This document shows positions 7,485 through 40,441 of a DNA stretch of 64,000 nt, in pieces; position 1 is the stretch's first letter, and every line of letters begins with the position of its first letter. The stretch is taken from contig NZ_ARWE01000001.1 in NCBI RefSeq assembly GCF_000384395.1, positions 558,001-622,000 of the forward strand, in the 5' to 3' direction. The notes beneath the pieces are model-generated. The model made no database searches. It had not been told where the DNA came from and saw only the letters and a list, made by a program, of their open reading frames with translations. The stretch is from Geopsychrobacter electrodiphilus DSM 16401 (GTDB taxonomy: Bacteria; Desulfobacterota; Desulfuromonadia; Desulfuromonadales; Geopsychrobacteraceae). A program made the translations under genes and the position numbers.

Positions 7485-7504
7485 CGCTCTCCTGATGTGC
7501 GTTC

Positions 7505-7553
7505 AATGAAAAAGGCAACGTCCTCCGGTTGAGGAGGCGTTGCCTTTTTCATT
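7505..7553. terminator. Bidirectional intrinsic terminator
   Basis: A long inverted repeat: arms AATGAAAAAGGCAACG-CCTCC and GGAGG-CGTTGCCTTTTTCATT around a short loop, with A/T runs on both sides. It serves the thioesterase gene on the plus strand and the selenoprotein gene on the minus strand. Confidence 0.9.
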
Positions 7554-7572
7554 GATCCTGGCTGACTGTGGC

Positions 7573-8223
7573 TTAAGCACTCAGCTTTTTAAGGATCTCC
7601 AGCGTGTCTTCGGGTTCGGGCCGTCTGGTGTGATCCGGGTGGAGTGCCGCATCGACTACGGTCCCGTCGCGATCAATGATAAATCGGCCTGGCAGCGGCA
7701 ACTCCCAGTGACTGTTACCGTTAAAGCGCTCCAGATCAATGCCTAATCCCAGATAGACATCTTTCATCGCAGCGGGTAGCTTGAAAACCATGCGGAATTG
7801 CTTGGCCAGAAGGTTGTCGGGATCAAGGAGCAAGGGGAAGGTTAACCCGAGCTTGGTGGTGAGGTTTCCGGCATATTTCTGCTGCATGGGGGAGATAGCG
7901 GCCAGGGTCGTACCGGTTTTTTTGATTTCGGGCAGAATCTTTTGCAGAGCTTCCAGCTCCGCGTTGCAGTACGGTCACCAGATGCCGCGATACCAGCTGA
8001 GGAGGAGCGGCCCTTTTTTTAATGCCTCACGGCTTGAAAATTCATTTTTGCTGGCGTCGCGCAGGACGAAGTCGGTCAGCTTCTCCCCGGCCCCCAGGGC
8101 TTGTTGGTGCAGGCCCGAGTCTTCAAGTTGCTGGCGGGATTCCTTCATGATTTTGAGAATTGCCGGATCCATTTTGGCTGCAGATGACTGGCTCATGGAT
8201 GACAGCAGGGCGTTCAAACTCAT
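7573..8223 (-). CDS. Peroxiredoxin-like (AhpC/TSA) selenoprotein with in-frame UGA = Sec
   Basis: The reading frame 8223-7573 is open except for one TGA at 7977-7975. The peptide before it ends RGIW and the one after it starts PYCNAELEALQKI. In AhpC/TSA proteins this position is cysteine (RGxWCPYCN), so the TGA falls exactly on the catalytic residue and gives a U-x-x-C redox motif. Read through, the product has 216 residues, a normal length. Downstream features fit the thioredoxin fold (LAAISPMQQKYA, LTFPLLLDPDNLLAKQF, RFIIDRDGTVVDA). The ATG at 8223 follows AGGAGG. It probably reduces peroxides using thiols. Annotation software would call two broken ORFs (7975-8250 and 7573-7887). Confidence 0.9.
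7946..7977 (-). promoter_or_regulatory. Candidate bacterial SECIS hairpin after the UGA codon
   Basis: In the mRNA, a hairpin GGAGCU-GGA-AGCUCU (7960-7946) begins 14 nt after the UGA, with a possible UGC/GCA lower stem. A small stem-loop with G in the apical loop at this distance is what SelB recognises in bacterial selenoprotein mRNAs. This was paired by eye; no folding energy was computed. Confidence 0.5.
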
Positions 8224-8275
8224 TTTGACCTCCTGTGATGGGGGATACAAAGTTTATCGCTCAAGTATAGCAATG

Positions 8276-8644
8276 TTAAAGGTAATTGCGTACCATCTGT
8301 ACCAGATTTCCGGGTGTAAATGGTTTGGTGACTATGCCGTCGGCGCCCGCCTCAGCGGCGAGAAGTTGCAGCTCAGCGTGAGATTTTGAGGACATAAGCA
8401 GGATCGGGATATCCCGGCTGCGGCTTTTACTCTTGAGGGTTTTGATCTTGTGATCGCCGTTCATCAACGGCATCATGTAGTCGATGATAATCAGATCCGG
8501 CGGGTTGCTGCCATAGATGATATGATTCGAGAAAATCGGGCTGTCCACGGTCGAGACCTGGTAGCCTGCGGCGCTTAAAAAGTCATTGGCCATGGCGAGG
8601 ATCAGATGATCATCATCAATGACGACGATATGCTTTGGTCTCAA
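8276..8644 (-). CDS. Stand-alone response regulator receiver (CheY-like)
   Basis: 122 residues, a single receiver domain. The acidic pair DDD is at 10-12, the phosphoacceptor aspartate is in LIIIDYMMPLMNGDHK near residue 55, the threonine/serine position is in ILLMSSKSH, and the conserved lysine is in GIVTKPFTPGN. There is no output domain, so it acts by protein contact or passes phosphate on. The start is TTG with AAGGAGG 7 nt upstream. It lies about 50 bp upstream of the selenoprotein gene on the same strand and may be co-transcribed. Confidence 0.9.
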   Translation of the reverse strand: MRPKHIVVIDDDHLILAMANDFLSAAGYQVSTVDSPIFSNHIIYGSNPPDLIIIDYMMPLMNGDHKIKTLKSKSRSRDIPILLMSSKSHAELQLLAAEAGADGIVTKPFTPGNLVQMVRNYL

Positions 8645-40306: not shown

Positions 40307-40354
40307 AAAAAAAACCGAGCTCTCCGTTGGATTTATCATCCTTCGGTAGCTCGG
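40307..40354 (-). terminator. Intrinsic terminator in the leader of the DUF1326-DUF2182 operon
   Basis: On the minus strand CCGAGCT...AGCTCGG (40354-40315) with inner pairs CCG/CGG and GGA/TCC is followed by eight T (40314-40307), then 26 nt to the start codon. It lies between the promoter and the first gene, which is how attenuators are placed. Confidence 0.75.
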
Positions 40355-40441
40355 CCATCTTGTGAGGTGTGAGAGGGAAGATCCGCCGCTTTCCGTCCCT
40401 GCTTTTCAACAGGTTTGGCTTTTTCGTGGATCACAGACCTG

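Follow-up and report, generated by a model that had tools for sequence, protein, structure and literature searches.

A predicted selenocysteine-containing, peroxiredoxin-like protein with a UPYC motif in Geopsychrobacter electrodiphilus and the comparative evidence for its SECIS hairpin

Comparative analysis of a minus-strand gene in the window (the whole 64,000-nucleotide stretch of Geopsychrobacter electrodiphilus DSM 16401 DNA analysed here) very strongly favors its being a selenoprotein gene, in which a UGA codon would be read as selenocysteine (Sec) 83 via SelB and a downstream hairpin to give a full protein of 216 residues. This reading follows from the combination of a conserved single TGA, the exchange of Sec and Cys at that site, the hairpin, purifying selection downstream of the TGA and the presence of the Sec machinery. 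From sequence, we infer the insertion of Sec and likewise the redox chemistry, substrate and enzyme activity of the protein. A sequence-only reading of this DNA had earlier proposed a Sec-containing protein of the AhpC/TSA fold in a Sec-competent host; it is supported by the machinery, by the column with 80 Sec and 23 Cys genes, and by the hairpins in 76 of those 80 Sec genes, with the register of the UxxC motif corrected.

The interrupted frame and the conservation of its TGA codon

The frame spans 217 codons including the TAA stop, i.e., 216 residues, and its sole interruption is a TGA at codon 83; the plus strand of the same interval contains several stops. A listing of open reading frames cuts the gene into two pieces, 7975-8250 and 7573-7887. 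The sequence-only reading had described precisely this, two broken ORFs making up one frame of 217 codons that is open except for a TGA, and had left the strand unstated, which is the minus strand. The features in and around the gene, in window coordinates, are:

7573..8223, minus strand: predicted Sec-containing peroxiredoxin-like protein, 216 residues, ATG at 8223, TAA stop (frame; read-through protein matches PF00578, AhpC-TSA, with 81.5 bits against a cut-off of 26)
7975..7977, minus strand: in-frame TGA at codon 83, the predicted selenocysteine of RGIW-U-PYC (80 genes, counting this one, have TGA here and 23 a Cys codon)
7966..7968, minus strand: codon of Cys86, second half of UxxC, falling on the peroxidatic Cys of classical peroxiredoxins (profile alignment; invariant in 42 aligned rows)
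7944..7962, minus strand: predicted bacterial SECIS hairpin with an 8-bp stem and a GGA loop starting after 20 spacer bases (SECIS rule; same-codon conservation; covariation partly above shuffles)
8228..8234, minus strand: ribosome binding site AGGAGGT 5' of the ATG (sequence; AG-rich sites in the same place in five genus relatives, L048-L051 and L053)
8276..8644, minus strand: response-regulator receiver gene adjoining the Sec gene on its 5' side (PF00072)
7504..7554, no strand assigned: inverted repeat resembling a two-way intrinsic terminator, between the Sec gene and a convergent thioesterase-family gene (core on both strands)

Terminator-like sites number four in the region against 1.8 expected, the core of the above repeat being found on both strands. 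A same-strand response-regulator gene lies directly upstream in five of the six genus loci, and a CvfB-type gene is found near the Sec gene in five of six as well. Neither neighbor turned up in the 40 other loci searched, most of which have only about 1.5 kb of flank, and the neighborhood yields no functional link outside the genus. An Rfam search of the window at the gathering threshold has as its sole match a c-di-GMP-I-GGC riboswitch aptamer that lies elsewhere (40341-40428, minus strand; 70 bits, with the gathering score set at 59).

Relatives of the gene are widespread: 38 of the 44 genomes in the organism's own family have some match at an E-value of 0.001, and each of the 15 matches beyond 1e-20 (in 14 genomes) carries the in-frame TGA. 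An even draw of 395 phylum genomes has a match at 1e-20 in 29, and the class has one at 1e-12 in 61 of 277 genomes. The sequence-only reading had called for an alignment of the TGA residue with Cys homologs, and at this one column 80 genes (including the gene studied) have TGA and 23 a Cys codon. The first batch of 48 loci supplied 47 with a readable motif (40 TGA including the present gene, four TGC and three TGT), the second batch added 39 TGA and five Cys genes after removal of one duplicate, and the loci L119 and L120 added one Sec and one Cys gene, respectively; also included in the Cys tally are ten plasmid genes, the best 10 of 67 records. Neither TAA nor TAG stands at the column in any of the 80 Sec and 23 Cys genes, with the qualification that the motif patterns required TGA or Cys there, so TAA or TAG could escape them. 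Every locus given to the motif search returned the motif except L102, which has a TGA when read by eye. Some entries required individual treatment: L161 and the second row of L123 are one gene and entered the count once; the extra TAAs counted in L122, L148 and L156 are those genes' own ends; in the run with the plasmid genes L047 gave a chance motif, which was discarded, and 16 other distant loci gave no motif; and a C-terminal piece matched in the class (G441) was left out. In an alignment of 42 rows with Sec written as C (the 48 first-batch loci minus L052, L056, L097, L098, L099 and L102) the site column is invariant, as is that of Cys86.

These observations bear on whether the TGA is instead a recent stop in a pseudogene, with the rest of the gene decaying, a possibility also raised by the sequence-only reading. 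Other stops are indeed seen in single copies: the same-genus copy L052 has an extra TAA at codon 47, and L102 has further stops upstream of its W-U-PYC and was left out of the tally as damaged or misread, sequencing error and decay being indistinguishable from sequence in both. However, the TGA is common to the phylum sample, neither TAA nor TAG stands at the column in any gene inspected, and each of the six genus pairs shows a lower pN past the TGA than ahead of it, making decay highly improbable. Comparison with the six genus relatives gives a dN/dS of 0.04-0.15 before the TGA and of 0.04-0.09 past it in five pairs, dS being saturated in the sixth, which shows purifying selection on the codons 3' of the TGA.

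A second alternative is that of two genes or a regulated early stop, whereby an 82-residue product would be made along with a second one from the downstream ATG (7573-7887). While the ORF listing does yield both pieces, codons 84-112, which fall outside either, are conserved (pN of 0.06 in five genus pairs and 0.13 in the sixth), all seven first-batch Cys relatives are uninterrupted over the match, and the annotated plasmid Cys copies are single genes (two of the ten have no annotation of the gene). Hence, we give this alternative scarcely any credence.

The genome, a single contig of 4.24 Mb, encodes selA (C1:1185320-1186660; 543.5 bits against a cut-off of 267.9), selB (C1:1186726-1188591; 359.3 against 242.25) and selD (C1:1188717-1189634; 343.7 against 125) side by side, all over curated cut-offs, and a tRNA-Sec with a UCA anticodon (66.4 bits against the Rfam cut-off of 47). 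The selD gene itself carries an in-frame TGA within SGUAAK, in agreement with the UxxK motif listed for SelD in a table of PMC9312934. Among 14 well-known control genomes, selA exceeds the cut-off in one (Escherichia coli), selB and selD in two each and tRNA-Sec in five; a tRNA-Sec match by itself is therefore weak, the tRNA model alone being not very specific, but selA, selB, selD and tRNA-Sec are jointly specific. The sequence-only reading had implied such machinery and would have fallen with its absence; all four parts are over their cut-offs. The co-occurrence of selA with the Sec gene (28 of the 29 phylum genomes with a match) was set aside as uninformative, since selA is near-universal in the phylum (355 of 395 genomes).

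The machinery also weighs against a reassignment of TGA to an ordinary amino acid, e.g., Trp. No observation in its favor was found; SelA, SelB, SelD and tRNA-Sec are present, the alternative residue at the column is Cys, and several relatives end the same gene with a TGA, so that this explanation has next to no probability. The pseudogene, the split gene and the reassignment were all rejected on account of the conserved TGA, the conserved codons 84-112 and the Sec machinery.

Returning to the selenoprotein reading, Cys and Sec genes do not form clean clades in the tree (six changes against a mean of 6.7 for shuffled labels, with many open forks). The Cys genomes G554, G560, G563, G437 and G243 retain selA, and G437 also has a Sec paralog (L163); in one further Cys genome that is 78% complete (G536) no selA was seen.

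The hairpin downstream of the TGA

In the proposed mechanism, SelB would bind the hairpin just 3' of the UGA and deliver Sec-tRNA-Sec, such that the UGA would be decoded as selenocysteine 83 and read-through would generate the full 216-residue protein. The candidate hairpin, GCGGAGCU-GGA-AGCUCUGC, lies at 7962-7944 on the minus strand, with the stem starting at the 13th base past the TGA and the loop at the 21st; the sequence-only reading had recognized a hairpin here with a spacer of 14 bases, which is in fact 12. As our SECIS rule we applied the limits given for bacterial SECIS elements in PMC13188914: a loop of 3-9, a stem of 4-16, a G in the first two loop bases, a spacing of 16-37 and an energy of at most -7.5. 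On scoring, a check suggested by the earlier reading, the hairpin lies within these limits, with its GGA loop, spacing of 20 and energy of -12.5 kcal/mol.

Taken in isolation, the hairpin is only modestly above chance, with a z of -0.7 to -2.0 against dinucleotide shuffles and of -1.3 against synonymous recoding. Further, the rule is permissive, as is evident from the 33 of 200 codon positions in the same gene that also satisfy it, the 42% of synonymous recodings of the first-batch Sec genes that pass it and the three of ten plasmid Cys genes that do so. Conviction regarding the hairpin comes from its conservation, because 39 of the 40 first-batch Sec genes pass, as against that 42% of their recodings; the corresponding figure for recodings of the seven first-batch Cys genes is 26% (recodings used codon usage pooled over loci and cover the first batch only). 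With 36 of 39 in the second batch and L119 (1/1), the Sec genes that pass total 76 of 80. For the Cys genes the counts are 0/7, 0/5, 0/1 (L120) and, on plasmids, 3/10, totaling 3 of 23. Four Sec genes fail: L134, L162, the second gene of L123 and L103, the last of which does form a stem with a GGA loop, at -6.6 kcal/mol. A Fisher test on 75/4 versus 3/19, tallies that predate L119, L120 and the rechecked counts, returns a p of about 7e-14, which is no more than indicative since the relatives are not independent. Against synonymous recoding, the folding z averages -1.3 over the 40 Sec genes and +0.4 over the seven Cys genes.

Conservation at the nucleotide level points in the same direction. 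In the genus pairs, the same amino acid is encoded by the same codon at 135 of 147 positions in the hairpin, as against 252 of 563 upstream and 218 of 490 far downstream, and the six best of 86 seven-codon windows for same-codon sharing all overlap the hairpin. Across 23 distinct hairpins 90.8% of cells are paired, compared to 31-54% after a shift of the structure by one to three columns; at the pair of columns 16 and 34, four hairpins have C-G instead of G-C. Three measures are above shuffles (0/500 as high for each), namely the paired cells, the covariation score and the cells showing a double change (5); two others are not, namely the pairs with a double change (2; 173/500 as high) and the further pair types (6; 361/500). 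As this alignment holds 24 loci picked for a GGA-type or near-GGA-type geometry, and the structure was itself derived from these sequences, the covariation result leans towards the GGA-type structure. A second geometry, with the loop one codon further (GUCAU, GUCGU or GGCUU at spacing 23, as opposed to GGA at spacing 20), is seen in L084, L085, L087, L091, L094 and L104. Overall, the comparisons show that a SECIS-type hairpin is under selection at the RNA level.

A contrast of Sec and Cys genes at a constant peptide is offered by a genus of the same class (g303). All 16 of its Sec genes encode UPYCSLQLRAYQKILP, and all 16 have CTT at position +5, TTG at +7 and AGG at +8, thereby forming GCCUUC-AGUU-GAGGGC. 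Outside the hairpin in these genes CTT and TTG each make up 18% of Leu codons and AGG 19% of Arg codons. Two Cys genes of the genus (L139 and L140) encode these 15 residues with CTG, CTG and CGT instead, so that one pair within the stem is broken, and neither has a hairpin that satisfies the rule; nor does a further Cys gene (L142), whose peptide differs slightly. In the four Sec genes of two other genera of that family (g301 and g304), CTT and AGG are replaced by CTG and CGG, i.e., two synonymous changes that keep the pair. The three Cys genomes of g303 still possess selA. This set represents an unusually clean natural experiment for SECIS.

Motif register, fold and probable chemistry

The classical peroxiredoxin active site has the signature PxxxT/SxxC. 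An AlphaFold2 model of the read-through protein, built on the 42-row alignment, has a pLDDT of 96.5, and its top structural matches are peroxiredoxins, namely AhpE (Z of 21.2, rmsd of 1.4 over 152) and Bcp4 (Z of 21.1, rmsd of 1.9 over 157). A profile search likewise places Bcp first, while the search with the single protein places ResA first. In the profile alignments with three classical peroxiredoxins (2cx3, 2ywn and 5epf), it is Cys86 that matches the peroxidatic Cys, and Sec83 takes the place of Ser or Thr in T/SxxC. Thus, only the Cys of the classical signature is kept, its Pro being replaced by Arg79 and its Thr/Ser by Sec83; nor does the protein display TxxU, with Sec at the peroxidatic position, its motif being UxxC. 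With the two ResA chains, by contrast, Sec83 and Cys86 line up with the CxxC, and the TGA aligns with the first Cys of the closest Cys homologs (RGxWCPYC). The sequence-only reading had placed the TGA exactly at the catalytic Cys of the AhpC/TSA family, which holds with respect to these homologs and the CxxC of ResA but is three residues off in true peroxiredoxins.

The protein is therefore best modeled as a peroxiredoxin fold bearing a thioredoxin-type U-P-Y-C pair. Sec83-Pro-Tyr-Cys86 would form a redox pair at the start of a helix, which most likely cycles between the reduced selenol/thiol and a selenenyl-sulfide and would hand on electrons to a disulfide or a peroxide. A true Sec peroxidase, with Cys86 as the peroxidatic and Sec83 as the resolving residue, rather than a thiol-disulfide oxidoreductase, is a serious contender to which we would assign somewhat less than an even chance. 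In its favor are the position of Cys86, which coincides with the peroxidatic Cys in peroxiredoxins, and the fold search, headed by the peroxiredoxins AhpE and Bcp4; the alteration of PxxxT/SxxC (Pro to Arg79, Thr to Sec83) and the precedence of ResA-type thiol-disulfide oxidoreductases in the single-protein search argue against it.

Relation to known selenoproteins

Selenoproteins of this general kind have been described before. A figure legend in PMC1914089 describes the TXXU and UXXC motifs of peroxiredoxin-like selenoproteins as homologous, the position of Sec differing between them, and Geobacter, Anaeromyxobacter and Desulfotalea are named there; PMC1794560 places a Prx-like thiol:disulfide oxidoreductase in Geobacter sulfurreducens, G. 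metallireducens, Syntrophus and Desulfotalea; and PMC9312934 and PMC13188914 list PF00578 UxxC/UxxU among predicted families that are not experimentally verified. UxxC selenoproteins of the AhpC/TSA type are hence already published for Geobacter and Desulfotalea (PMC1914089, PMC1794560), and by virtue of PF00578 and UxxC the present gene belongs to a known kind. The Prx-like thiol:disulfide oxidoreductase selenoprotein (representative WP_010940744.1; PMC9312934, PMC13188914, PMC1794560), compared by its description in these sources only, is alike in its AhpC/TSA domain and in having Sec first in UxxC. The cd02970 peroxiredoxin-like selenoproteins with UxxS, as described in PMC13188914, share their name with the annotated Cys homologs and have Sec first in the motif as well, but with Ser at the second motif position where the present protein has Cys. 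Our literature search found no paper on UPYC together with selenoprotein.

The TxxU Sec-peroxiredoxins have in common with the protein the AhpC/TSA fold and Sec in the redox motif; however, in these Sec replaces the peroxidatic Cys, whereas here the Cys is retained and Sec stands three residues before it, at the place of the Thr. The loci L115-L118, from four genomes within the same family, hold TxxU peroxiredoxin-like genes (FTSGU, FTPVU, FTSVU) with an in-frame TGA at the peroxidatic position and a signal-like start. Additionally, at L123 (G509:C120:38874-40093) a pair of different UPYC selenoprotein genes is arranged head to tail, and one of the pair resembles a secreted-looking paralog at L119. 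This paralog, with a signal-peptide-like start, exists in a Sec form (WUPYC; L119) and a Cys form (WCPYC; L120). Among the genes with such starts, the second gene of L123 and L162 fail the SECIS rule, and L119 and L163 pass it.

The Cys proteins annotated as 'peroxiredoxin-like family protein' (RGxWCPYC) share, in the ten listed plasmid records, 41-43% identity with the query across 89-91% of its length; they have Cys in place of Sec, and seven of the ten are without a rule-passing hairpin. Four of the plasmid homologs (L105-L107 and L110) are flanked by glutathione S-transferase-type and SDR oxidoreductase genes, which hints at a shared redox role.

Searches of NCBIfam with the read-through protein found no model reaching its cut-off, the SelL-related redox protein model (NF040769) scoring 38.8 bits against the 120 required. 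More speculatively, and in our estimate with rather low probability, RGxWUPYC could define a widespread selenoprotein subfamily that falls below the cut-offs of the NCBIfam models, in which the peroxiredoxin fold and the Cys at the peroxidatic position would be kept and Sec would replace the catalytic Thr as a built-in resolving residue, such that no distant resolving Cys would be needed.

The gene is thus ordinary in kind, while the comparative evidence for its SECIS is unusually clean. Ordinary gene finding is expected to split it, and it scores below the cut-off of every NCBIfam model. The gene family represents a good test bed for the requirements of SECIS elements and for the exchange of Sec and Cys in genomes that keep selA.
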